DNA from: Pseudomonadales bacterium
GTDB lineage: Bacteria > Pseudomonadota > Gammaproteobacteria > Pseudomonadales > DC-out160
NCBI GenBank assembly: GCA_019090455.1
Contig: JAHRWA010000008.1
Location: 72,083 to 136,082 of the forward strand
Direction: 5' to 3'
DNA length: 64,000 bases
This document shows positions 3,134 to 28,313 of the stretch, piece after piece (within the stretch, counting starts at the first letter, position 1; each line of letters opens with the position of its first letter). The position numbers were made by a program, and so were the translations under genes. The notes beneath the pieces are model-generated. The model was not told where the DNA came from and searched no databases. It saw nothing but the letters and a program-made list of their open reading frames with translations.

Positions 3134-4183
3134 TTATTGAAAGGCCATCGTCTTGAGTGCCGCCTCCATGATTTGTTGCGTTGAAGGCATGTAATAATCT
3201 TCGTTTCGATAGTAGGGCATGATGGTATCGTAACCGGCGACTCTGGCGATGGGTGCTAGTAATGAGAGTAGCCCCTTCTCTGCAATTTGTGCTGATATTT
3301 CGGCTCCTACTCCGCAGGTTTTTGCTGCCTCATGGATGATGACACAACGTCCTGTGCGCTCAACGGATGCCAAGATGGTGGTCATGTCTAAGGGTTTGAT
3401 GGAAGCGACATCAATGACATCGGCATGAATGTTTTGTTCTTCTAATTTTGTTGCAGCTTCCAGGGTTTCTTGAATCATCGCTCCCCATGAAATTAAAGTA
3501 ATGTCATCTCCCTGCTTTAAGGTAAAGCAGGTTTCCAGGGGTAAACCCTCACCGTTATTGACGATGTTTTGTTTTACCGATCGGTAGATGCGTTTGGGTT
3601 CGAGAAAGATTACGGGATCGGGTGATTGTATTGCGCTAATCAGTAAGCCATAGGCTCTGGCTGGTGAGGAGGGTACGACTACCTGTAATCCCGGGATATG
3701 AGCAAACATCGCTTCGGTACTTTCAGAGTGATGTTCTGGTGCGTGAATTCCGCCGCCGTAAGGTGCACGCAAAACCATGGGGCAGGTCAGTCGGCCTCGT
3801 GTTCGGTTACGCATTCTCGCGGCGTGGGAGACGATGTGTTCCACGGTAGAATAGATAAAGCCCATGAATTGAATTTCACAAACGGGTTTCAGTCCCTGGC
3901 TTGCCATACCAATAGTGATGCCAGCGATTAACGTTTCTGCTAAAGGAGTGTCCATCACTCGACGTAAACCAAATTCACTTTTTAAATCGACGGTTGCGCG
4001 AAAGACACCACCATTGGTTCCCACATCTTCACCCAGTACCACCACATTCTCATCATGTTGCATAGAGTGGGCGAGTGCTAGATTGATGGCTTCTACCAAT
4101 GTTGCTTTTGTGGTTTCTATCTCTGGCTGTTCGCCCGAGATCGGATTTTTATGGGGTTCGGGTGTGGCTTGAAATTGGGTCAT
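3134..4183 (-). CDS. bkdA2: Branched-chain 2-oxoacid dehydrogenase E1 beta subunit
   Basis: Beta subunit of the thiamine-diphosphate-dependent E1 decarboxylase. Signature stretches are VVLGEDVGTNGGVFRAT near the N-terminus, DTPLAETLIAGITIGMA, and the C-terminal transketolase-type domain (ISWGAMIQETLEAA, VIHEAAKTCGVGAEISAQIAE). I set the start at ATG 4183, giving 349 residues. It has GAGGAG upstream and falls one base after the E1 alpha stop, which implies translational coupling. A longer frame to 4264 would run into E1 alpha. E1 alpha and E1 beta form the alpha2beta2 enzyme. Confidence 0.9.
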   Translation of the reverse strand: MTQFQATPEPHKNPISGEQPEIETTKATLVEAINLALAHSMQHDENVVVLGEDVGTNGGVFRATVDLKSEFGLRRVMDTPLAETLIAGITIGMASQGLKPVCEIQFMGFIYSTVEHIVSHAARMRNRTRGRLTCPMVLRAPYGGGIHAPEHHSESTEAMFAHIPGLQVVVPSSPARAYGLLISAIQSPDPVIFLEPKRIYRSVKQNIVNNGEGLPLETCFTLKQGDDITLISWGAMIQETLEAATKLEEQNIHADVIDVASIKPLDMTTILASVERTGRCVIIHEAAKTCGVGAEISAQIAEKGLLSLLAPIARVAGYDTIMPYYRNEDYYMPSTQQIMEAALKTMAFQ

Positions 4184-4184
4184 G

Positions 4185-5273
4185 TTAGGCTCCTCGTCGC
4201 ATGTTGGAGGCTTTGTGAATGACGTCGGCTCGTTGTTCTTCCAGCGCTTGGGGTAGATCAGCATAGAGGTAGTCGAACATGGCTTCTGCTGGTTCGGACT
4301 CTATTGAGGTATACACTTCAACAGCGGACTGAACTTGTTCTTTACAGGATGCGATTAATTGTTTTTCCTGGTCTTCATCCCAGAGTTTTTTGCCGTATAA
4401 AAAGTTTTGTAGTCGTTTGATGGGTTCTCGCTCCCAGCCTTTACTCAGTTCTTCTGCGGACCGATAGCGCGTGGCGTCGTCTGCAGTAGTATGGTCACAG
4501 AGTCGATAACTAATGGCTTCTATTAGCGTTGGCCCCTTTGCGTTATGAGCTTTCTCTAAGGCATGATTTAATACGTGTAATAACGCTATGGGGTCATTAC
4601 CATCGACTTGAATGCCCTCGATCCCGGCAGAAATGGCTTTTTGCGCAATGGTTTCAGCAGCAGTTTGTTCCTCCCTTCTTACCGAAATCGCCCATTGATT
4701 GTTGTTTACGACGACGACCATAGGGAGTTGCCAAGTGCCTGCCAAGTTGAGAGATTCACTGAAATCGCCACGAGAGGTGGCTCCGTCACCACAGGTGGTG
4801 ACCACCGCACGTCGTTGCCGCCGCACTTTGAAGGCTGTGGCAATACCCGCTGCATGTGTTATTTGTGTTGCAATGGGAACGCAGGTAGGGAAATCCTCTT
4901 TGGCATCACCGGTAAATACACTGCCTCTTTCATCACCTCCCCAATATCGCATGATGTCTTCCATGGGCACGCCACGTAATAATTGTGTGGCTTGATCCCG
5001 ATAGTAGGGAACGAAAACGTCATCACTGGCCATGCTAAAACCCACCGCTGAGCCGATGGCTTCTTGACCTAAGCTGGAGGGGTAGGTTCCCATTTGTCCG
5101 GTACGCTGAAGCGCGACAACTTTTTGATCGAAGGTCCGTACTAACACCATGTGTTTGTAAAATCGTACCCAAAGATCAGTGTTGCAAAGTTGTTCTGGAA
5201 AAGAGTCTAAAGGTTTACCTTCATCACTCAGGTATTGGTAATACGGGATGGTAAAATCAGCGGCGATTTTCAT
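4185..5273 (-). CDS. bkdA1: Branched-chain 2-oxoacid dehydrogenase E1 alpha subunit
   Basis: Alpha subunit of E1, which binds thiamine diphosphate and Mg. The cofactor motif is TCGDGATSRGDFSESLNLAG followed by VVVVNNNQWAIS, the GDG-to-NN pattern typical of the cofactor fold. The substrate-side stretch GQMGTYPSSLGQEAIGSA is also typical. The C-terminal part has SYRLCDHTTADDATRYRS, the loop that in mammalian E1 alpha carries regulatory serines. Length (362 residues) is normal. It follows the amino acid dehydrogenase gene by about 65 bases and precedes E1 beta by one base. Confidence 0.9.
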   Translation of the reverse strand: MKIAADFTIPYYQYLSDEGKPLDSFPEQLCNTDLWVRFYKHMVLVRTFDQKVVALQRTGQMGTYPSSLGQEAIGSAVGFSMASDDVFVPYYRDQATQLLRGVPMEDIMRYWGGDERGSVFTGDAKEDFPTCVPIATQITHAAGIATAFKVRRQRRAVVTTCGDGATSRGDFSESLNLAGTWQLPMVVVVNNNQWAISVRREEQTAAETIAQKAISAGIEGIQVDGNDPIALLHVLNHALEKAHNAKGPTLIEAISYRLCDHTTADDATRYRSAEELSKGWEREPIKRLQNFLYGKKLWDEDQEKQLIASCKEQVQSAVEVYTSIESEPAEAMFDYLYADLPQALEEQRADVIHKASNMRRGA

Positions 5274-18048: not shown

Positions 18049-18133
18049 GCGCCAGTGGTGAAATTGGTAGACACGCTGGATTTAGGTTCCAGTGTCGCGA
18101 GACGTGTAGGTTCAAGTCCTACCTGGCGCACCA
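18049..18133 (+). tRNA. tRNA-Leu (anticodon UAG)
   Basis: 85 bases with an encoded CCA end. The acceptor stem GCGCCAG pairs with CTGGCGC; the anticodon stem CTGGA/TCCAG encloses loop TTTAGGT, giving anticodon TAG; the variable arm is long, as expected for a class II tRNA. The 3' part is the integration target of the adjoining element, which restores it perfectly. Confidence 0.97.
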
Positions 18134-18139
18134 TTTACA
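18078..18139 (+). repeat. attL: tRNA-side copy of the 62-bp attachment repeat
   Basis: Covers the anticodon-stem-to-CCA part of tRNA-Leu plus six bases beyond it. Identical to 28198-28259; identity stops at T/C on the left and A/G on the right. Confidence 0.95.
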
Positions 18140-18148
18140 ATCAACAAC

Positions 18149-19183
18149 TTAAGCAACTTCCAACACCTTCTTAAAAAACTCTTTCCCCGACTGTGCCAGA
18201 TTTGTGTCAACGTTCTTCGCCGATTCGCTTAAATGTGTCGCCGAAAGGGGCTCATACTTCAAAACCATGTCGTAAGAACTCCATCCTCCTAGCTCCATAA
18301 GTTCATTCAGCGAAGTGCCGTTCATTACGTGCCAGCTTGCCCAAGTGTGTCTTACATCGTGAATTCTAAAGTCTACTATTCCAGCTTTAGCGATACACTT
18401 TTTCCAAAACGGATTCGTCGGCGGATTGATGATTCCGAAAACAAATTCATTATGTTTTCCGATCTGACTACGCAAAATATCCATAGCTGTTTGGTTCAGA
18501 GGAATGGCGATATCTTTTTTGCCTTTCGCTTCGTCACCGTACACCCAGGCGCACTGTCTTTGCATGTCGATCTGAGACCACTTTAGGTGATAAAAATTGC
18601 TCTTACGAAGACCGGTCGCAAAGCCAAGCTTAATTGGCTGACGGTGGCGATCAGGTAAAGCATCTAACAGTTTTATCGCTTCTTCGGGCTTTATCCAGCG
18701 AACTCGCCGCTTGGCTTCTTTTCGCTTTCGAATGATGGGATAATTTTCTATCCAATCCCATTCGATCGCTGCCTTTCTTAAAATCATGCTTACCAATGAA
18801 ATGTAACGATTCTGGGACGCGCTAGTTAACATTCGCTCTTCCCCTAAATCTGTTATCATATCCTCGATGTATTGACGAGTTAAATCAGTTAAGCATCGTC
18901 CTGACAAGTAAGGGGTGAGTACGCGAAGTCGGTAGATGTCGGTCTCCAATGACTTTTTGTGCTCGCTCTCCTTTCTCCATTTTACAACTGCTTCTTCCCA
19001 GGTATATTTAGGCTTCTCTCCTAGTTGAGATTGCCGCCATAAATCGTTTTCTATCGATCGCGCCAACTCTTCCGCTTTTGCTTTGATGGAAGTGCCAGAG
19101 CTTCTTCGTACTCGGGGGAAGCCTTCAATTTTGACGTCAATTTGCCAATGGGGACTATCTTTTCGTTGCCTGATTTTGTACAT
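18149..19183 (-). CDS. int: Tyrosine recombinase integrase
   Basis: Site-specific recombinase that would catalyse integration and excision at tRNA-Leu. The 344-residue product has an N-terminal arm-binding domain (about 1-60), a SAM-like core-binding domain (about 60-165) and a catalytic domain with the Arg in GFATGLRKSN, the HxxR motif in RIHDVRHTWASWH, a Trp in LGGWSS at the second His position and the nucleophile Tyr in MVLKYEPLS. All catalytic positions appear intact. The start overlaps the upstream excisionase-like gene by 133 bases, an arrangement that favours coupled expression. The stop lies 16 bases past the tRNA. Confidence 0.93.
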   Translation of the reverse strand: MYKIRQRKDSPHWQIDVKIEGFPRVRRSSGTSIKAKAEELARSIENDLWRQSQLGEKPKYTWEEAVVKWRKESEHKKSLETDIYRLRVLTPYLSGRCLTDLTRQYIEDMITDLGEERMLTSASQNRYISLVSMILRKAAIEWDWIENYPIIRKRKEAKRRVRWIKPEEAIKLLDALPDRHRQPIKLGFATGLRKSNFYHLKWSQIDMQRQCAWVYGDEAKGKKDIAIPLNQTAMDILRSQIGKHNEFVFGIINPPTNPFWKKCIAKAGIVDFRIHDVRHTWASWHVMNGTSLNELMELGGWSSYDMVLKYEPLSATHLSESAKNVDTNLAQSGKEFFKKVLEVA

Positions 19184-19383
19184 AATGTGTCCTCTTTGTG
19201 TGACGCCATCAAAGAGCAGCCGGGAGCATAACCATATATTAAATAGTGATCAAGCGAGCTTCGATGGAATATAATTCGGCGACCTACCTTTCGACCTCCC
19301 AATTCCTTGGCTTTTTTATAAACTGAATCTTTGTGACATTTAAGGTATTCGGCCACTTCTTCAACTGCCAATATGTCGTTCAT
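19051..19383 (-). CDS. Excisionase-like helix-turn-helix protein
   Basis: A 110-residue protein with an N-terminal winged-helix/MerR-like DNA-binding domain of the HTH_17 type (ILAVEEVAEYLKCHKDSVYKKAKELGGRKVGRRIIF, given here as parts of residues 4-38), a form shared by many excisionases and AlpA-like regulators. The start ATG overlaps the previous stop (ATGA), and AAAGGAT precedes it. The C-terminal half overlaps the integrase start. The likely role is directing the integrase towards excision; a transcriptional role is also possible. Confidence 0.7.
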   Translation of the reverse strand: MNDILAVEEVAEYLKCHKDSVYKKAKELGGRKVGRRIIFHRSSLDHYLIYGYAPGCSLMASHKEDTLCTKSGNEKIVPIGKLTSKLKASPEYEEALALPSKQKRKSWRDR

Positions 19384-21072: not shown

Positions 21073-21303
21073 TTAACTATTGCGCTCAGACATTGCTGCT
21101 TTGTATGCTTCCTGAACCTGAATAAATTCCTGTTCAGAGCCTCCTCGATCTGGATGCTTGTCGAACCTAATACGTTTATAGTTAGCCTCGATTACTCTTA
21201 ATGAAGCATCACGGCGACACTCCAATACATCCCACCACTCTTTATTTTCGTTTTGCGCTGGATTAGGTAGAGCCTCAAAACCCGTAAACGCTTGTTGCAT
21301 CAT
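21073..21303 (-). CDS. Small J-domain (DnaJ-like) protein
   Basis: 76 residues, essentially one J domain: WWDVLECRRDASLRVIEANYKRI, then the diagnostic His-Pro-Asp in KHPDRGGSEQEFIQVQEAYKAA. J domains stimulate the ATPase of DnaK. Phages use such proteins to recruit the host chaperone for replication or morphogenesis. Its start codon overlaps, on the opposite strand, the start codon of the 1538-residue gene, leaving no room for separate promoters. This suggests a rearranged junction. Confidence 0.75.
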   Translation of the reverse strand: MMQQAFTGFEALPNPAQNENKEWWDVLECRRDASLRVIEANYKRIRFDKHPDRGGSEQEFIQVQEAYKAAMSERNS

Positions 21304-24300
21304 GTCTGATGATCCCCAGCGTTCAATGCCTCGAATCGCATTAATCGTTTTTGTGATCGATCAGATGAACCCAGAGTCGGGCAAGTTTGATGAGCATAAG
21401 GTCATGCTGTCTTTCGGTTCGAAAAAAGAGGCTATCGAAGGGTATAACTCTAACTACGAGGAAGGCTGGGATGGTATGCGTGGCATCAAAGAGATGTCTA
21501 CGGATGAATTCAAGTCGTGGCTTGCTGATGGAGATACTACAAAACCTATTGCTAAAAAGTTTCCAAAGAAAAAGGCGGCTAGCAAAAAGCCTGCAAATAA
21601 GGCTGAAACTGTAAAGGCAAAAACTAAGGCGGCATCAAGAAAATCAGGGCAAAAAAAAAGCTTAGAAAGTAAGGGGGTTGATGGAAAAATCTTAATTGAG
21701 CCAGTAAAAACAGCCTTAAATGGGGTCGAAAAACCGGAAGTAGACGAAAAGCGACCAACACCAGCCAATGAAAAAACGAAAGGTCCGGCGTCAGGCAAAC
21801 AAAATCTTATCAACGATCTCGGTGAGTTGAAATCTAATGCAGAACAAATCACAGAGGTGAAGGTTAGTGAAAAGCTGAAAGAGACAGAACAGGGAGTCGT
21901 ACTCTTCAGCAAAAAACCGAGCGATGACGGGGGTAAGCTATCCCAAGACATCGACTACAACTTGCCAAAAAATACAATTGTTGGTGGCGCTGAAGAGATA
22001 GGAGATTTGTATGATTTCGCTCTAAGTCGTGAAGGAATAAAAAAGAGAGCTGTTCGGTTTGGCGTCGTGAATGCAGAAGAGGCTCAGCGAATTGAAGACT
22101 TGACAGGAATCAAGGGGCTGACGGGCTTTAAGCACACCGTTGATCAATCTGGTATTCGTCATGCCGACAAAAGCCATGGCAATGAGAGTACTGAAACCCC
22201 GAGAGGGTATGTGCCAGTCAAGAAAAATGATTTTAAGCGGATACCGGAGATAATTAAATCGCCTGATTCAATCGCCTACGGCAATAAAGATAGGCGGGGC
22301 TTGGACCATATTGTTTATAGTAAAAAGTTTGAAGATGGGGTGACGTATTATGTCGAGGAGGTGCGAGAAGGGAAAAAAGTGTTGATATTAAAGTCCGTGT
22401 GGAAAGCGCGACCAGGGCAACGTGCAACATCCGAAGATGGCTTCGCGCAAACGTCCAAGACGGCTGACCGCAACTCTCCACACGAAAACAATAGTATCTC
22501 TCCAAAGAATACGCCAGTCAAGAATAGCGACCCTGATGAAGAAGTATATCTTTCAGTTAATCACTCCAAACCCAAGGGGCTACCTGTTGCTGATGTCGAG
22601 AAAATTGTACAGGCGATAAGCCTGCAAGGGGCAGAGGTCATCGTGGTTAAATCTGTTGCTCAAGTGCCCTTGGATATTGCGACAGAAGGGCACGTTCGGG
22701 GTCTCTACCATCCGATGAGCAAAAAGGTTTATCTGATTGCCGACAATCTAGACTCAAAGGCTGAAGCGTCAAAAACACTAATGCACGAAGTGGTTGGCCA
22801 TTACGCCATGGATGCGATATTAGGTGATTCCCGTAAAGCGATATTCGATGATATTCAGCAGCTCAAGAGTAAGAGTGCGAAGTTCGAGGGATACGCGCAA
22901 GAGGTGAAGGAGGCTTATGGAGAGCTTGCAGCAGATGAGGAGAGTTCTGAAATAATTGCGCTAATGGCGGAAGGGGGAATAAAAAACCCACTAATGACAA
23001 AGGTTATTGCTGCCGTTCGTTCTTGGTTGAAAAAGATGGGGGTCAAGTTACCTACATCGGAAGTTGATATCCGGGGATTGATCCTGAAGGCTGGCGATTA
23101 CGTTGGCACCAAGAAGCCGCGCAAACTATCTATGCCGGTAACCAGTGAGGATGCCGTTAAGTTTTTGAAAGAAGTTGGCTCCTCCTATAAGAAAATTCCA
23201 ACCAATATCGCGGACGCTAAAAAGGCGATGTCTGCAACGGGTGAACTTTTAGGGGATAAGTCTGCGGATCTTCGCCCTAAGTGGCTTGCTGTAATGACGC
23301 GCAGGCATTTAGAGGATTTAGCAAAGGCCGATTTACCCGCAATATCAAGGTACGTTAAAACAGCTCAGTCCATGGATGCCTACAGAAATGAGCTTTTAAG
23401 CGAGTCTTCTACTCTGTCGGAGCACTGGCAGAAGTATATTCGTGAGAATAAGGCTGAAGCTGACATATTGGCGAAGTTGATGCACGACACGACAATAGCC
23501 GGAGTTGATCCATCCGTTGATTATGAGGTGCTTACCGATGGCAAGAAGACGGCACACAAGATAGCTGTACTCAAAGAAAAGGCGCGAGGGAGAAGCGGAT
23601 CGTCTACCGGCCCAATGATGCGTGAGATAGATGACGCCAAGAATTTGTTAAAGCAGGAGGCCAACAGGAAAGAAGCGCTTCCTGAATTGATGGAAACTTG
23701 GAGCAAGCTAAGCCCTGAAGCACAGGATATCTACCGGTCTGTTCGAGATGAGTATGCTGCACGATCTGAGGCGACATTAAAGGTTATTCTTGAGCGTATC
23801 GATAGGTATGTTGAGAACAAAAGCCACAGAGCCAAACTTAAGGAAAACGTGCGACTCCAGTTTGAGTCAGCTCGGATACAGGCGCCGTATTTCCCGTTAG
23901 CCAGATTCGGTGATTACTGGGCAACATCGTTCAAGCCTGATGATGAAGTGGCTGAAATGAGCATGTTCGAGACTCAGGGCGAACAAAAGAAGTGGATCGC
24001 AGAGCAAGAGAGCAAAGGCTTAAGGGTAACGAACGGCTTTAAAACCACCAAAGGCGACATGATACGCAGCATTGACTCGGAGTTTGTAATGAGCGTCGAA
24101 CTAATGGTGGATAAGTCTGATAACAAGGATGAATTAAAGGACAGTATTTATCAGTTCTACCTCCAAACCCTTCCTGATCTATCCATGCGAAAGAGCTTTA
24201 TTCATCGTAAGCAGACTGAAGGCTATGGCCGTGATGTGCTTAGGGCTTTCTCCCATCAAATGTTTCATGGCTCTTACCAGCTGGCCAGAATGAAGCACAC

Positions 24301-25918
24301 GCCAGAGATGGAAGGTGCGCTAAGGGATGCTGAAAAGCAGGTTTCTAAGTCGGGCAGCCCAAACCGAGCGGCCCAATTCTTTAACGAGCTGCAGTTGCGT
24401 CACGAATGGGCCATGAATCCAGGCGGGGCTCAGTGGGCTAACAATGTGTCGTCGCTGGGCTTTATTATGTTCTTAGGGTTATCCCCTGGAGCCGCATTAG
24501 TCAACGTCACACAGACGCCATTGGTTGCATTGCCGGTCCTTGCGTCTAAATTTGGATGGGCAAAATCAAGCAAAGAGCTGTTGAGGGCTGGAAAGGATTA
24601 TTTCGCAGGCGGGCTCAATATTGAAAACTCTCTTTCTGGGTCAGAGATTAAGGCCTATGAGAAATTCGTGAAAGATGGGCTTATCGATAAAACCTTAGCG
24701 CATGACTTGGCCGGTATCGCAGAGGAAGGTGGCGAATATAGCGAAACCAGGCATCGAGTAATGAAGGTTGTTTCATTCCTGTTTCACAATGCGGAGAAAT
24801 TTAACCGAGATGTCACCAGCATCGCAGCTTACCGATTGGCGAAAAAAAAGGGGAAAAGCCACGAGTCAGCGATGGAGATGGCGGAGGAGCTGACATGGGA
24901 AAGCCATTATGATTACTCGAGCGGAAACAAAGCCAGATTCATGCAGGACGACAAAGCTAAGGTAATATTCATGTTTAGGCAGTTCAGCTTGAATATGTCG
25001 TACATGCTGCTTCGAGAGACCCACCAAAGCTTTAAAGGCGAAAGCAAAGAGGTTCGATGGGAAGCTAGAAAAACTATTATGGGCGTGCTTGGCATGCACT
25101 TTATGCTTGCTGGCTCGATGGGGATGCCGCTATTGTTTCCTGCATTATTCTTCTTTGCTAACCTTAAGTGGGACGACGAAGATGAGCCTTGGGATGCTGA
25201 AGTAGCTTTTAGGCAGTTCATGGCCGAGTATATCGGGGATACAGGCGGTCGGGTTATCGCTCATGGGCCAATGGATGCGCTAACAGGGATGGACTTTTCT
25301 TCCAGAGTATCATTAGACGGTCTTTGGATAAGGTCGCCAGGTCGAGATTTGGAAGGGCGAGAGGTCGCGGCTTACTGGGGAGGTCAGCTGCTTGGCCCCA
25401 TGTTTGGCATGGCTGGTAACACTATGGCAGGTATCAGCATGATTTCTGAGGGGAAGGTTCAGCGAGGCGTTGAGACGATGCTGCCAAAAGGGATCAAGGA
25501 TGGGTTCAAGGCGTTGCGTTATGCAGAGGAGGGCGTAAATAATTATCGTGGCGATCCTTTGATTGAGAAGCTAGATGGATCCGAATTATTCTGGCAGGCA
25601 ATGGGTATCGCTCCAGCGAGAGTGGGCGAGCAATACGATAAAAACCGCTATGTAAAAAACAAGGAACGTAAAATTCTTGATCGTAAGAAAACGCTATTGA
25701 ATAAGTTCGCGTTATCGGTCAATCAGAGTGATGATGATCTGAGGGATGAGGCTATCAAGGGTATCAGAAGGTTTAATTCAAAGAATCCACGAGTGATGAT
25801 TACCATGGATTCTCTGATGCGATCAATGAAGATGCGTAAGCTATATAGCGCGAAGTCTCTTAGCGGAATCAATCTTACGGACAAGTTGCGCTACATAGCT
25901 GATGAGGTGGACTACTGA
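21302..25918 (+). CDS. Phage polyvalent protein remnant (pyrophosphatase-half, PBECR nuclease, metallopeptidase, PLxRFG)
   Basis: 1538 residues, the largest gene here. (1) Residues ~16-72 match the C-terminal half of the pyrophosphatase-like domain of phage polyvalent proteins (VFVIDQ, GKFDEHKVML, EFKSWL); the N-terminal catalytic half is missing. (2) A Lys/Ala/Pro-rich linker. (3) Residues ~205-370 resemble a phage Barnase-EndoU-ColicinE5/D-RelE-like nuclease (IRHADKSHGNESTETPRGYV; YYVEEVREGKKVLILKSVWK). (4) A zincin-like domain near residue 495 with HEVVGHYAMD. (5) A long helical C-terminal half with the PLARFG motif and hydrophobic segments. Such proteins are thought to enter the host with phage DNA. 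No ribosome site is visible at ATG 21302, so expression is doubtful. Confidence 0.75.
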   Translation: MSDDPQRSMPRIALIVFVIDQMNPESGKFDEHKVMLSFGSKKEAIEGYNSNYEEGWDGMRGIKEMSTDEFKSWLADGDTTKPIAKKFPKKKAASKKPANKAETVKAKTKAASRKSGQKKSLESKGVDGKILIEPVKTALNGVEKPEVDEKRPTPANEKTKGPASGKQNLINDLGELKSNAEQITEVKVSEKLKETEQGVVLFSKKPSDDGGKLSQDIDYNLPKNTIVGGAEEIGDLYDFALSREGIKKRAVRFGVVNAEEAQRIEDLTGIKGLTGFKHTVDQSGIRHADKSHGNESTETPRGYVPVKKNDFKRIPEIIKSPDSIAYGNKDRRGLDHIVYSKKFEDGVTYYVEEVREGKKVLILKSVWKARPGQRATSEDGFAQTSKTADRNSPHENNSISPKNTPVKNSDPDEEVYLSVNHSKPKGLPVADVEKIVQAISLQGAEVIVVKSVAQVPLDIATEGHVRGLYHPMSKKVYLIADNLDSKAEASKTLMHEVVGHYAMDAILGDSRKAIFDDIQQLKSKSAKFEGYAQEVKEAYGELAADEESSEIIALMAEGGIKNPLMTKVIAAVRSWLKKMGVKLPTSEVDIRGLILKAGDYVGTKKPRKLSMPVTSEDAVKFLKEVGSSYKKIPTNIADAKKAMSATGELLGDKSADLRPKWLAVMTRRHLEDLAKADLPAISRYVKTAQSMDAYRNELLSESSTLSEHWQKYIRENKAEADILAKLMHDTTIAGVDPSVDYEVLTDGKKTAHKIAVLKEKARGRSGSSTGPMMREIDDAKNLLKQEANRKEALPELMETWSKLSPEAQDIYRSVRDEYAARSEATLKVILERIDRYVENKSHRAKLKENVRLQFESARIQAPYFPLARFGDYWATSFKPDDEVAEMSMFETQGEQKKWIAEQESKGLRVTNGFKTTKGDMIRSIDSEFVMSVELMVDKSDNKDELKDSIYQFYLQTLPDLSMRKSFIHRKQTEGYGRDVLRAFSHQMFHGSYQLARMKHTPEMEGALRDAEKQVSKSGSPNRAAQFFNELQLRHEWAMNPGGAQWANNVSSLGFIMFLGLSPGAALVNVTQTPLVALPVLASKFGWAKSSKELLRAGKDYFAGGLNIENSLSGSEIKAYEKFVKDGLIDKTLAHDLAGIAEEGGEYSETRHRVMKVVSFLFHNAEKFNRDVTSIAAYRLAKKKGKSHESAMEMAEELTWESHYDYSSGNKARFMQDDKAKVIFMFRQFSLNMSYMLLRETHQSFKGESKEVRWEARKTIMGVLGMHFMLAGSMGMPLLFPALFFFANLKWDDEDEPWDAEVAFRQFMAEYIGDTGGRVIAHGPMDALTGMDFSSRVSLDGLWIRSPGRDLEGREVAAYWGGQLLGPMFGMAGNTMAGISMISEGKVQRGVETMLPKGIKDGFKALRYAEEGVNNYRGDPLIEKLDGSELFWQAMGIAPARVGEQYDKNRYVKNKERKILDRKKTLLNKFALSVNQSDDDLRDEAIKGIRRFNSKNPRVMITMDSLMRSMKMRKLYSAKSLSGINLTDKLRYIADEVDY

Positions 25919-26337
25919 CGGTAAGTTTGTACTGGTCCATTTTCAGGGTCAACGGAAAGAAGGCCGTTCTCGTTTGTATAGTATCCTGTGACATTTAAAT
26001 AGTCGCAGGTTATAAAATATTGAGATGATCCATAAAGGTATTCGCAGGAATTAGTGACAAAAGCCCCGCTACTCTGATCGCCTAGCACCGTTAATGTGCA
26101 GTCGCACTGAGCGCCGCCTTCAAAAAAGTATGATATAGGTTCTGGCTCTGAAAAGGAGTAGTCTCTGAGGTCTACGATATCCAGGCTCTCATTGTTCAAC
26201 CCTCGCCATAAACTAAATAATTCATTTGTAGCTGATGACCTATTGGCTCTATCAGTAGTATCGCTATTGGGGTCTCCATCGCTACCGCCGCATGCTGATA
26301 GTAAAATGGCAGATAGCATTACAATAGATCTAAACAT
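25912..26337 (-). CDS. Lipoprotein, unknown function (element cargo)
   Basis: 141 residues with a lipoprotein signal (MFRSIVMLSAILLSACGGS) and a Ser/Asp/Asn-rich tether. The C-terminal domain has four cysteines (CDCTLTV, SCEYLYG, ITCDYLNV) and alternating strands, so a small disulfide-stabilised beta domain is likely. It overlaps the 3' end of the polyvalent gene by 7 bases on the opposite strand. It is probably a lysogenic-conversion (moron) gene. No homologue recognised. Confidence 0.6.
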   Translation of the reverse strand: MFRSIVMLSAILLSACGGSDGDPNSDTTDRANRSSATNELFSLWRGLNNESLDIVDLRDYSFSEPEPISYFFEGGAQCDCTLTVLGDQSSGAFVTNSCEYLYGSSQYFITCDYLNVTGYYTNENGLLSVDPENGPVQTYRQ

Positions 26338-26483
26338 AGGTCATTCCTTGGATGTGAGTTAGGTTGGGGTTCTACAGCAAAAAATGAACCATATTCTCTA
26401 CATCATTGTTTTATTAGGAATAATGAATATATCTACATGTTTTTCATATGGGTATTGTAAGGATTACTGACAGGAGCGGCGGC

Positions 26484-26554
26484 GTTATATCCAGCCCTTA
26501 CTCCTGGCCTTTGTCGTTGGGGTCTTTTAGATGAGGTGGATGACTAGTTTTTGA
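26484..26554. repeat. Imperfect intergenic repeat, copy 1
   Basis: Begins GTTATATCCAGCCCTTACTC and is similar (about 34 of the first 38 bases) to 27007-27077. The two copies flank the membrane protein gene in the same orientation. Contains a short CCAG...CTGG hairpin and a T-rich end. Confidence 0.7.
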
Positions 26555-26578: not shown

Positions 26579-26968
26579 TTAGGTAGCACCCAATGCTTGA
26601 ATAGGGGTGTTGCTTTCAATGATTTTGCTAACCACGTGTGTAACAAAATAATAGATGCCGCAAATTATTAAGGCTGAAACTCGGCCTCCCCACTCTGCTC
26701 TTTTAATACCATTTTTCTGAGTGTTTAGATATTCTGGATTGTAGCTTGGAAATGCCCACCAAATGGCATGATTGACGGATGATTTTAGCCACAAGAATAT
26801 AAAAAAATACGATAGTTTAGCTGTGATAAATACCGCAGAGCTGTCAATTTTATTGTGAATTACTTCCAAGGCAACTATGGTTGCAATGTAGCTAAGCAGT
26901 GTGAACCAAAAAATTGAGATTGTTTTTGAGGTTTGACCCGAGAATATTTCTTTTAATCTGCTATCCAT
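26579..26968 (-). CDS. Small multi-pass membrane protein (element cargo)
   Basis: 129 residues with about three hydrophobic segments (ISIFWFTLLSYIATIVALEV; FITAKLSYFFIFLWL; VSALIICGIYYFVTHVV). The central loop HAIWWAFPSYNPEYLN is aromatic-rich. No family recognised. It is the only gene between two copies of a ~70-bp imperfect repeat, which gives it a cassette-like look. A role in superinfection exclusion is a guess based only on its place in a prophage-like element. Confidence 0.5.
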   Translation of the reverse strand: MDSRLKEIFSGQTSKTISIFWFTLLSYIATIVALEVIHNKIDSSAVFITAKLSYFFIFLWLKSSVNHAIWWAFPSYNPEYLNTQKNGIKRAEWGGRVSALIICGIYYFVTHVVSKIIESNTPIQALGAT

Positions 26969-27006
26969 ATAGTTCAGCTAAATTATTAGTTTTATCTTGT
27001 AGTGAT

Positions 27007-27077
27007 GTTATGTCCAGCCATTACTCCTGGTCTTTGTTGTTGGAGGGTTTTGGGTTGGATGTTTGGTTTTTTTGTCA
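27007..27077. repeat. Imperfect intergenic repeat, copy 2
   Basis: Begins GTTATGTCCAGCCATTACTC; the partner of 26484-26554. Ends in a run of seven T. Confidence 0.7.
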
Positions 27078-27254
27078 TAGACCCTATAGGTAATTCTGTA
27101 TATATTTATTCAGATCGAGAACCCGCTGAAGAATTTAGGCAGTACTTCAAAGGTTAACAAGTCAAAGCACGTCGCATTGTAAATGCTGTCACCTTTTTTG
27201 AAAAAAAACACTCAAAAAAGCCGCCACCATTCACCATCCGGTGTTTGAGGCGTT

Positions 27255-27293
27255 AAGTTTCACGTTAAGCCTCGACGTGAAATTTGATCAAAT
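27255..27293. promoter_or_regulatory. Palindromes upstream of the avidin gene
   Basis: TTTCACGT (27258-27265) and ACGTGAAA (27275-27282) form 8-bp arms, extendable to 11 with one mismatch. Directly after is the perfect 12-bp palindrome ATTTGATCAAAT (27282-27293). They end 28 bases before the start codon and may be operator sites. Confidence 0.45.
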
Positions 27294-27321
27294 CAACTGA
27301 GGTATAAAAGGACTTATTTCT

Positions 27322-27774
27322 ATGAAGAATCAACATATTGTTGCTGTAATTGTATCGGTGCTATTTAGCATTTCTGCGTATGCTGATAGTAATCAATCAA
27401 CCTCCCTTCAGGCTCTTTCAGCGTGGACAAATCAGAGTGGGTCAACACTTTATATTGACACTATTGAAAGTAATGGGCTTCTGACTGGAACCTATATAAA
27501 CCGGGCACAAGGGTATGGCTGCCAAAATATATCTTACCCTGTTACTGGTTGGGTATATGGTACAGCCATTACATTTAATACCCTATGGCAAAGCACTACC
27601 GAATCCTGTAACTCAATTACTGCATGGACAGGATTTTATTATCAAGGAGCAATTCGTACGTTGTGGCAACTGACTATTAATGGTTCTACGAATACCTCTC
27701 AAATCATTCAAGGAAGCGACACATTTAAACCATCAACGGCAGTACTTAAAAAATCACTTATTCTTGAAAAATAA
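27322..27774 (+). CDS. Secreted avidin-family biotin-binding protein (rhizavidin-like)
   Basis: 150 residues. Signal peptide 1-21 (cleaved after SAYA), then an avidin barrel. Equivalents of streptavidin biotin contacts are visible: Asn37 and Ser41 (WTNQSGST), Tyr58 and Asn60 (TGTYINRAQG), Trp89, Ser98/Thr100, Trp102 (AWTGFYY), Trp115 (LWQLT) and Asp133 (GSDTF). The inter-subunit Trp120 of streptavidin is absent. Cys67 (GYGCQN) and Cys96 (ESCNS) fall in the loops that are disulfide-bonded in rhizavidin, whose sequence as I recall it is closely similar. This points to the dimeric avidin class. It should bind biotin in the periplasm or outside the cell. It is carried on the integrated element; AAAAGGAC precedes the ATG weakly. 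Confidence 0.88.
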   Translation: MKNQHIVAVIVSVLFSISAYADSNQSTSLQALSAWTNQSGSTLYIDTIESNGLLTGTYINRAQGYGCQNISYPVTGWVYGTAITFNTLWQSTTESCNSITAWTGFYYQGAIRTLWQLTINGSTNTSQIIQGSDTFKPSTAVLKKSLILEK

Positions 27775-28197
27775 ACTTAACAAAAGCAGCCAGCAGGACG
27801 CGCTAACGCGCGCCTCTGCTGTGTGCGTTAATAGATAAAATGCCCTAGTGAATATTGTTAGGATGATAAATGGTTTAAGAGTTTTCCTGCTGGCGGTAGC
27901 GTAGAGCATTTGCGCCCACTCCGTGGCAGAACAATAGTCCCAATGAGTTAGGATTGTCAAACAGCGTAACAATTGCTGTTTTTTAAAAGATGGAAAAATA
28001 TGCGTGACTCCTCGAGTATGGTTTGTGTGACGTGGTTGGTGTATATAATTACAGTGTTTTTGGCCAATCAAAAAACTGTGCCATATCTGTGACAAAGGCT
28101 ATCGAATTCACCCTTTATTGTGCCAATTTGTGCCGTAAACTTGCTCTTTGACGGCTGTTAAGTTGTTGTTTTAATTGGGTGTGTGGTTGCTGTTAGC
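27775..28197. other. Intergenic region between avidin gene and attR
   Basis: About 420 bp without a convincing gene. An imperfect GC-rich hairpin (AGCAG at 27792-27796, CGCG inner arms, CTGCT at 27816-27820) follows the avidin stop and may end its transcript. The 113-residue minus-strand frame here has no ribosome site or recognisable content. Confidence 0.5.
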
Positions 28198-28259
28198 GGA
28201 TTTAGGTTCCAGTGTCGCGAGACGTGTAGGTTCAAGTCCTACCTGGCGCACCATTTACA
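28198..28259 (+). repeat. attR: distal copy of the 62-bp attachment repeat
   Basis: Identical to 18078-18139, i.e. the 3' half of tRNA-Leu plus six bases; a tRNA fragment without its 5' half, marking the right end of the element. Confidence 0.95.
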
Positions 28260-28313
28260 GTGATAATGATTTCGTTAACTCCCTCCCTTTTTTTATGAAA
28301 CCCTTTTTATTTT

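Follow-up and report, generated by a model that had tools for sequence, protein, structure and literature searches.

A wilavidin-type avidin gene with a predicted pseudoknotted leader lies behind an attC site in a decayed tRNA-Leu prophage

Analysis of a 64,000-nucleotide stretch of a Pseudomonadales genome (the window, meaning the whole stretch) revealed, at the level of sequence, a decayed DarB-type prophage in tRNA-Leu whose right end contains an attC site and, directly behind it, an avidin gene of the wilavidin type preceded by its own 5' leader. This leader carries a predicted pseudoknotted RNA common to other wilavidin-like avidin genes. Considering all the evidence, the locus is probably best explained as an attC-linked mobile avidin unit lodged in a decayed prophage, which would encode an exported, biotin-denying protein under leader-controlled translation. 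The protein itself adds a member to a family already known. What appears to be new is the avidin leader RNA and the attC-bounded avidin unit, judging by the literature searched (subscription papers lay mostly outside its coverage), in which we found no description of the leader RNA, no published attC-bounded avidin unit and no papers on wilavidin or on a biotin riboswitch. The features of the locus, numbered by window position, are as follows.

18049-18133, + strand: tRNA-Leu, the integration target (ARAGORN)
18078-18139, + strand: left 62-bp att repeat, the 3' part of the tRNA, 100% identical to 28198-28259
18149-19183, - strand: tyrosine integrase (PHROG phrog_1, E=1.5e-55)
19051-19383, - strand: excisionase-like protein (phrog_2907, weak match, E=0.001)
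21302-25918, + strand: shortened DarB-like giant phage protein (phrog_10089, E=3.6e-216, best stretch 3944-4632 of 4647)
25912-26337, - strand: small lipoprotein-like protein by eye, non-phage cargo (ORF, no Pfam match)
26579-26968, - strand: small membrane-protein-like protein by eye (ORF, no Pfam match)
27059-27157, + strand: 32-codon ORF whose stop codon lies within the attC site (from sequence, no Pfam match)
27152-27258, + strand: integron-type attC site, R'' GGTTAAC and R' GTTAAGT (bottom-strand z=-5.23, top-strand z=-2.59)
27253-27825, + strand: predicted avidin gene cassette, comprising RNA leader, ORF and 3' hairpin (left edge placed by homology to locus L032; right boundary weaker)
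27256-27303, + strand: predicted RNA pseudoknot in the avidin leader (covariation, held-out model recovery)
27256-27264 / 27276-27284, + strand: helix P1 of the leader pseudoknot
27269-27274 / 27298-27303, + strand: pseudoknot helix, the loop strand pairing with the downstream strand
27308-27312, + strand: Shine-Dalgarno (SD) sequence AAGGA, downstream of the pseudoknot
27322-27774, + strand: avidin ORF, 150 aa, with a likely signal peptide and the C-terminal tail KKSLILEK
27775-27830, + strand: attC-like hairpin directly 3' of the avidin stop codon (bottom-strand z=-2.70)
28072-28278, + strand: right prophage arm including the right att repeat 28198-28259 (79.5% match over 210 columns to congener genome G001)

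The avidin ORF matched the Pfam family Avidin (PF01382) with 53.2 bits (cut-off 24; E=4.5e-14) and was the single match to this family in the 5.55-Mb host genome. A search of the PDB placed wilavidin first (E=2.2e-55), followed by shwanavidin and then rhizavidin, with identities to the window avidin of 73% (over the shared region), 61% and 48%, respectively. The designation rhizavidin-type in an earlier note on this DNA is thus apt as to the disulfide type and the missing inter-subunit Trp, but the nearest solved relative is wilavidin. When the window avidin was aligned with streptavidin, rhizavidin-type, wilavidin and shwanavidin-type sequences, nine letters (N37, S41, Y58, W89, S98, T100, W102, W115 and D133) were identical to those of streptavidin at positions that we take to be biotin contacts. 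The column of streptavidin S45 adjoins an alignment gap, where by eye N60 of the window avidin substitutes, as in rhizavidin; nearly all of the streptavidin contacts are kept, as the note had held. Streptavidin W120, presumably the inter-subunit Trp, aligned to a gap, in agreement with the absence of this residue noted earlier. C67 and C96 were invariant in all six aligned sequences and at least 90% conserved across a 24-sequence alignment, and the cysteine pair and the missing Trp were common to the window avidin, rhizavidin and shwanavidin. A disulfide linking L3,4 and L5,6 has been described at the positions where these cysteines sit (PMC5398887), which agrees with the claim that they occupy the rhizavidin disulfide position. 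At the level of sequence alone, then, the window protein shows the features of the dimeric avidin subfamily (no inter-subunit Trp; an L3,4-L5,6 cysteine pair) and is a genuine avidin of the disulfide type.

An AlphaFold2 model, computed from 24 window- and locus-derived avidin sequences, gave a barrel of eight strands with a pLDDT of 84, and superposed on wilavidin chain 7our_C with a target-normalised TM score of 0.94 and an rmsd of 1.4. Residues 1-21 resemble a signal peptide by eye, with likely cleavage after residue 21. The tail KKSLILEK contains a K-S/T-hydrophobic motif that recurs in the last 14 residues of 18 of 25 avidin relatives, and this stretch beyond the barrel is likely an oligomer or self-ligand tail. 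Tails of this kind matter within the family: entries for a short wilavidin and for an agroavidin bearing the Hoef tail appear among the PDB titles, and the ligand-binding site of hoefavidin is described as occupied by its own C-terminal peptide (PMC5398887). Wilavidin (PDB 7ouq, 7our and 7p8y) and the window avidin are alike in fold, in the cysteine pair and in possessing a C-terminal tail, by which wilavidin presumably forms its hexamer. The two differ in that the wilavidin locus L041, which encodes precisely the 117 aligned wilavidin residues, has no pseudoknot leader, whereas the window avidin has one, together with a mobile-element location and a different tail. Rhizavidin and shwanavidin share with the window avidin the cysteine pair and the lack of the Trp, but the leader RNA is absent from the four rhizavidin-type loci tested and from the shwanavidin-type locus. 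In a protein tree, the window avidin fell outside every strongly supported group, with the avidin of L032 nearest by path; for this reason, no donor is claimed.

The element that carries the gene occupies 10.1 kb between the two perfect 62-bp repeats, with the integrase and the weakly matched excisionase-like gene at its tRNA end. An integrase at a tRNA and flanking att repeats are therefore present, and no complete virion gene set was found among the proteins scanned. Among ten window proteins, matches to head or virion families of PHROG were confined to short parts of the DarB-like protein, and one further window ORF had no phage-family match. Phage proteins related to the DarB-like gene showed 37-39% identity among the best 12 of 73 records; Pseudomonas phage Skulduggery (39.3%) and Ochrobactrum phage POI1126 (38.4%) were among the matches listed, over 98% of a 691-residue DarB segment. 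These DarB-like phages are ∼60 kb in size, as against the 10.1-kb window element, in which no virion gene set was found. The DarB-like remnant also matches pyrophosphatase-like, PBECR3 nuclease-like and LPD39 Pfam domains. Comparison with one congener genome (G001, 87% complete) revealed that the equivalent tRNA-Leu bears an integrase 86% identical to that of the window, while the DarB-like end, the right arm of the prophage and the chromosome beside it have their equivalents on another contig. The DarB-like counterpart in G001 contains ∼1.8 kb extra between the parts matching residues 16-193 and 191-880, and the shorter gene in the window indicates that the window prophage has suffered deletion. 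Between the DarB-like gene and the att site, G001 carries other genes (of three scanned, one matched a PHROG of unknown function) and no avidin, nor was an avidin found elsewhere in that genome. Because a like prophage at the equivalent tRNA lacks avidin at that end, the avidin is regarded as accessory cargo. The description of the gene as cargo of a deleted prophage in tRNA-Leu is accordingly borne out by the 62-bp repeats, the integrase, the shortened DarB-like gene and the avidin-free prophage of G001. By eye, an imperfect ∼46-bp repeat (26483-26530 and 27005-27054) flanks the membrane-protein-like gene; these repeats were considered as attC sites and rejected, as box searches found no fitting pair there. 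The right end of the G001 prophage (L086:3514-6390) encodes a 958-residue protein with many SDSTLQWDLL-like repeats and no PHROG match (E≤0.01).

The site upstream of the avidin leader has the AAC/GTT ends and spacer loops of integron attC sites, and the consensus by which we name the R'' and R' boxes was fitted at six of seven positions in R'' and at all seven in R'. None of 200 shuffles folded as well as its bottom strand. Two further copies of this attC family were found, one in the host genome (G000:C15) and one in the congener (G001:C98), with bottom-strand z values of -5.28 and -5.30. The congener contig also contains a number of small genes, as well as a fragment resembling an integrase that scores below the family cut-off. 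The host encodes an integron integrase (TIGR02249, 408.1 bits; cut-off 265), a family that exceeded the cut-off in 0 of 14 control genomes. This integrase gene (L136, G000:C79) lies at a contig end, beside a very long non-ribosomal-peptide-synthetase-like gene. Thus, an upstream attC with its boxes and bottom-strand hairpin occurs together with an integron integrase in the host, as for a gene cassette. Moreover, blastn of the window against the 77%-identical avidin locus of a Candidatus Thiodiazotropha (L032) gave homology over 27253-27775, and the first base of this homology directly follows the G of GTTAAGT, where the integrase is predicted to cut. The 32-codon ORF ending in the attC may represent the final codons of a preceding cassette gene that was truncated. 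On the other side, the hairpin behind the avidin has a box, ACTTAAC, that fits RYYYAAC, whereas GTTAATA, the right box, does not fit the consensus and the hairpin is of modest stability. The avidin unit therefore resembles integron gene cassettes in its attC family, in the short ORF ending in attC and in the hairpin after the avidin, but integron cassettes sit in an integron array, whereas this unit sits in a prophage and its right attC-like site departs from the consensus. The palindromic upstream region that the earlier note ascribed to the gene is real, but is actually two things, namely the attC site and the RNA pseudoknot.

Mobile avidins as such are already known. Matching avidins were found in 89 plasmid records, including 45 from Xanthomonas and 37 from Rhizobium, with the R. 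etli CFN 42 record NC_004041 among them, which shows that the statement that dimeric avidins are described as chromosomal genes was wrong. According to one survey, over 10% of the avidin genes of bacteria lie in mobile elements (PMC8033661). An avidin search of viral contigs and a phage collection returned none, as did searches of viral sources with streptavidin, rhizobial and one other avidin clade as queries. One provirus locus in IMG/VR (L067:982-6849) was recovered with wider avidin alignments; within 6 kb it encodes an integrase, an avidin of 31% identity and an abortive-infection protein resembling BstA, and this avidin had no match in the phage collection. In a library of predicted viral protein structures, the one match with E≤0.001 was an avidin of Pithovirus. 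A search for avidins at tRNA-Leu elsewhere did not extend the arrangement seen in the window: none of 28 loci scanned had a tRNA-Leu near the avidin, and two (L037 and L045) had another tRNA. Phage-integrase matches occurred in 17 of 18 avidin-bearing genomes, a genome-level count in which contigs are not tied to avidin loci.

Related avidin genes share a common leader plan, in which helix P1 with its GCCUC-like loop is followed, after a linker, by a strand able to pair with that loop and then by the SD, often with A-rich sequence in between. Covariation was counted in 12 unaltered leader sequences. P1 was paired in 93.5% of cells, with two-sided changes in six of nine pairs among these 12 sequences, and the 19 two-sided cells compared with a shuffle mean of 4.7 (reached in 0 of 500 shuffles). 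Its covariation was 0.633, whereas slid versions did not exceed 0.175; pairing fell to 48% or less when the partner was displaced by 1-3 columns, and G-U pairs accounted for 15 of 108 cells. The pseudoknot helix, in an alignment that left out central linker bases, was 97.2% paired with two-sided changes in three of six pairs (U-A/C-G, C-G/U-A and G-C/A-U), and pairing fell to at most 50% on sliding. Shuffles gave moderate results for this helix, with the covariation score reached in 11, the percentage paired in 13 and the pair types in 361 of 500. The distance from the pseudoknot strand to an SD-like word was 4-10 nt in 12 of 13 loci and 16 nt in L038. Energy folding of six single leaders was unremarkable (z from -3.19 to 0.09; window -1.84, L039 0.09), and the lowest-energy fold of L043 had the loop pairing and lost P1. 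An ad hoc hairpin-plus-loop score, in the seven loci for which shuffles were made, beat 98 of 100 dinucleotide shuffles for the window or all 100 otherwise. This score is not discriminating alone, because L047, without a model match, scored 42.5 against 41.5 for the window, L040 gave nothing and L035 gave a different pairing; thus, the evidence rests on the alignment counts. These point to a conserved, covarying leader structure near expression signals, a property expected of riboswitches.

The leader RNA was found at 14 of 17 wilavidin-like loci (the window, L029 and L032-L046; fragment L062 was left out), 13 by covariance model R1, comprising its 12 training sequences and L044 (identical to L043), and one (L045) by eye. 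In L045 the plan is present with a bulged P1, as judged by eye, and L026 and L030 are further copies of this locus. By model, the leader was absent from L041 (wilavidin), L042 and L046 (shwanavidin-type), and it was found in none of the four rhizavidin-type loci tested out of 13 (L048-L060), which indicates that avidins do not need it. Loci with the pseudoknot span Sedimenticolaceae, Sulfuricellaceae, Methylococcaceae, Rhodanobacteraceae and Porticoccaceae. In a held-out test, a P1 covariance model (R2) built from six other loci was searched against 60 sources (0.70 Mb), and the window site, though absent from training, was the best match in the window (43.3 bits, E=2.7e-8). Six of nine untrained loci with the plan were recovered at E<0.01 (the window, L139, L039, L043, L044 and L029), whereas L035 was weak (E=0.61) and L040 and L045 were missed. 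The leader model was also run with stricter filters over a sample of 390 genomes of the order. Strong matches were obtained at the avidin of G221 (53.9 bits) and the window (50.3 bits), both in training, and at an untrained site in G206 (33.6 bits); four more genomes gave weaker matches of 22.3-23.6 bits. The host genome had a single match, at the avidin, and the avidin leader of G140 (L045 type, accepted by eye) gave none. At the G206 site (L139:1501-1721, in G206:C250), the P1 hairpin is kept, the loop-to-strand pairing is broken (by eye) and a 50-codon ORF with a signal-like start stands in the place of avidin; upstream lies a gene for a 171-residue protein, by eye the same as the gene preceding avidin in G140 of the same genus. 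The site is apparently a decayed avidin locus, and the strong matches in the scan therefore lie at two avidin genes and at one locus that apparently once held avidin.

Searches against 4227 Rfam families gave five matches for the window, none for L036 and two for L043, all with E of at least 0.88 and far below gathering scores. The known Rfam pseudoknots preQ1, SAM-II and SAM-V were set aside, as no covariance-model match was obtained for these three sequences. These riboswitches, which we take to have a small pseudoknot architecture, resemble the avidin leader in having a hairpin whose loop pairs with a 3' strand, and most avidin leaders have an A-rich stretch by the SD; the leader differs in lacking an Rfam match in the three sequences and in having avidin as its gene partner.

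With respect to the origin of the unit, it probably travelled as a gene cassette and then lodged in the prophage. An avidin acquired with the phage as a cargo gene (moron), with the attC being coincidental or a later insertion, seems rather unlikely: the place between the DarB-like gene and the right arm conserved in G001 is the usual cargo position, and another avidin lies beside a BstA-like gene in an IMG/VR provirus (L067), but this account sits poorly with the copies of the attC family elsewhere in the host genome and in the congener, and with the homology to L032 that begins at the predicted cut point of the attC. A non-functional avidin, left as a relic in a dead element, is very unlikely. 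Such a fate would suit a 10.1-kb element in which no virion gene set was found, and avidin decay is apparent at another locus (L139), yet the ORF, the pocket residues, both cysteines, the tail, the SD and the leader pairing are all intact here. The protein is predicted to be exported and to bind biotin very tightly, which would deny biotin to neighbors. Biotin scavenging, also suggested by the note, is less likely, since the host has bioB (425.7 bits; cut-off 225), and a secreted avidin would be more plausibly aimed at others than at supply.

As for the leader, its hairpin loop would pair with the strand a few bases before the SD, and the pairing state would set avidin translation; our best guess is that a signal-responsive pairing, when formed, blocks ribosome loading, with biotin or a biotin derivative as the natural candidate signal. 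That the leader is a ligand-binding riboswitch is a tentative proposal, to which we give somewhat less than an even chance. A role for biotin or a derivative as its ligand is doubtful: the genes behind the leader RNA encode biotin binders, which favors it, but the strong matches among the 390 genomes include no biotin synthesis genes and the host match occurs at avidin only, which disfavors it. We would likewise regard as improbable the fuller proposal, in which this leader would be the first RNA known in nature to sense biotin or a derivative, serving secreted-avidin genes rather than biotin synthesis within a self-contained mobile unit. The leader may instead be a constitutive translation or mRNA-stability element, or one responsive to temperature or protein, and no metabolite sensor at all, an account that is quite possible though not one we would call likely. 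Structure and SD proximity are what the sequence data establish, and in the genomes scanned a single gene family accounts for the strong matches, whereas a riboswitch typically serves multiple genes of a pathway. However, a pseudoknot conserved over five bacterial families is more than a simple stabilizer seems to require. P1 is also a near-palindrome ahead of a biotin-related gene and could be the DNA operator at which a BirA-, BioR- or BioQ-type biotin repressor binds, but this is highly improbable, given that an operator would keep its letters whereas the P1 arms change by compensation with 15 of 108 cells being G-U, that the loop pairs with a strand outside the palindrome, and that no BirA operator was seen in the upstream region.

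Two riboswitch reviews count biotin as one of the cofactors for which no RNA sensor is known (PMC9971707, PMC10043782). A conserved leader tied to biotin-binding proteins would therefore offer a concrete RNA to test for biotin sensing. Moreover, the role of bacterial avidins is unsettled, and the identity of an inducing signal would be a direct clue to it, while cassette-like mobility suggests a route for the spread of avidins among distant bacteria. At six loci (L029:10366-10794, L036, L039, L040, L043 and L044), a small gene whose product starts, by eye, much like MDLLDSKNVNNRIKK was observed downstream of avidin, and it is possibly an avidin partner gene.
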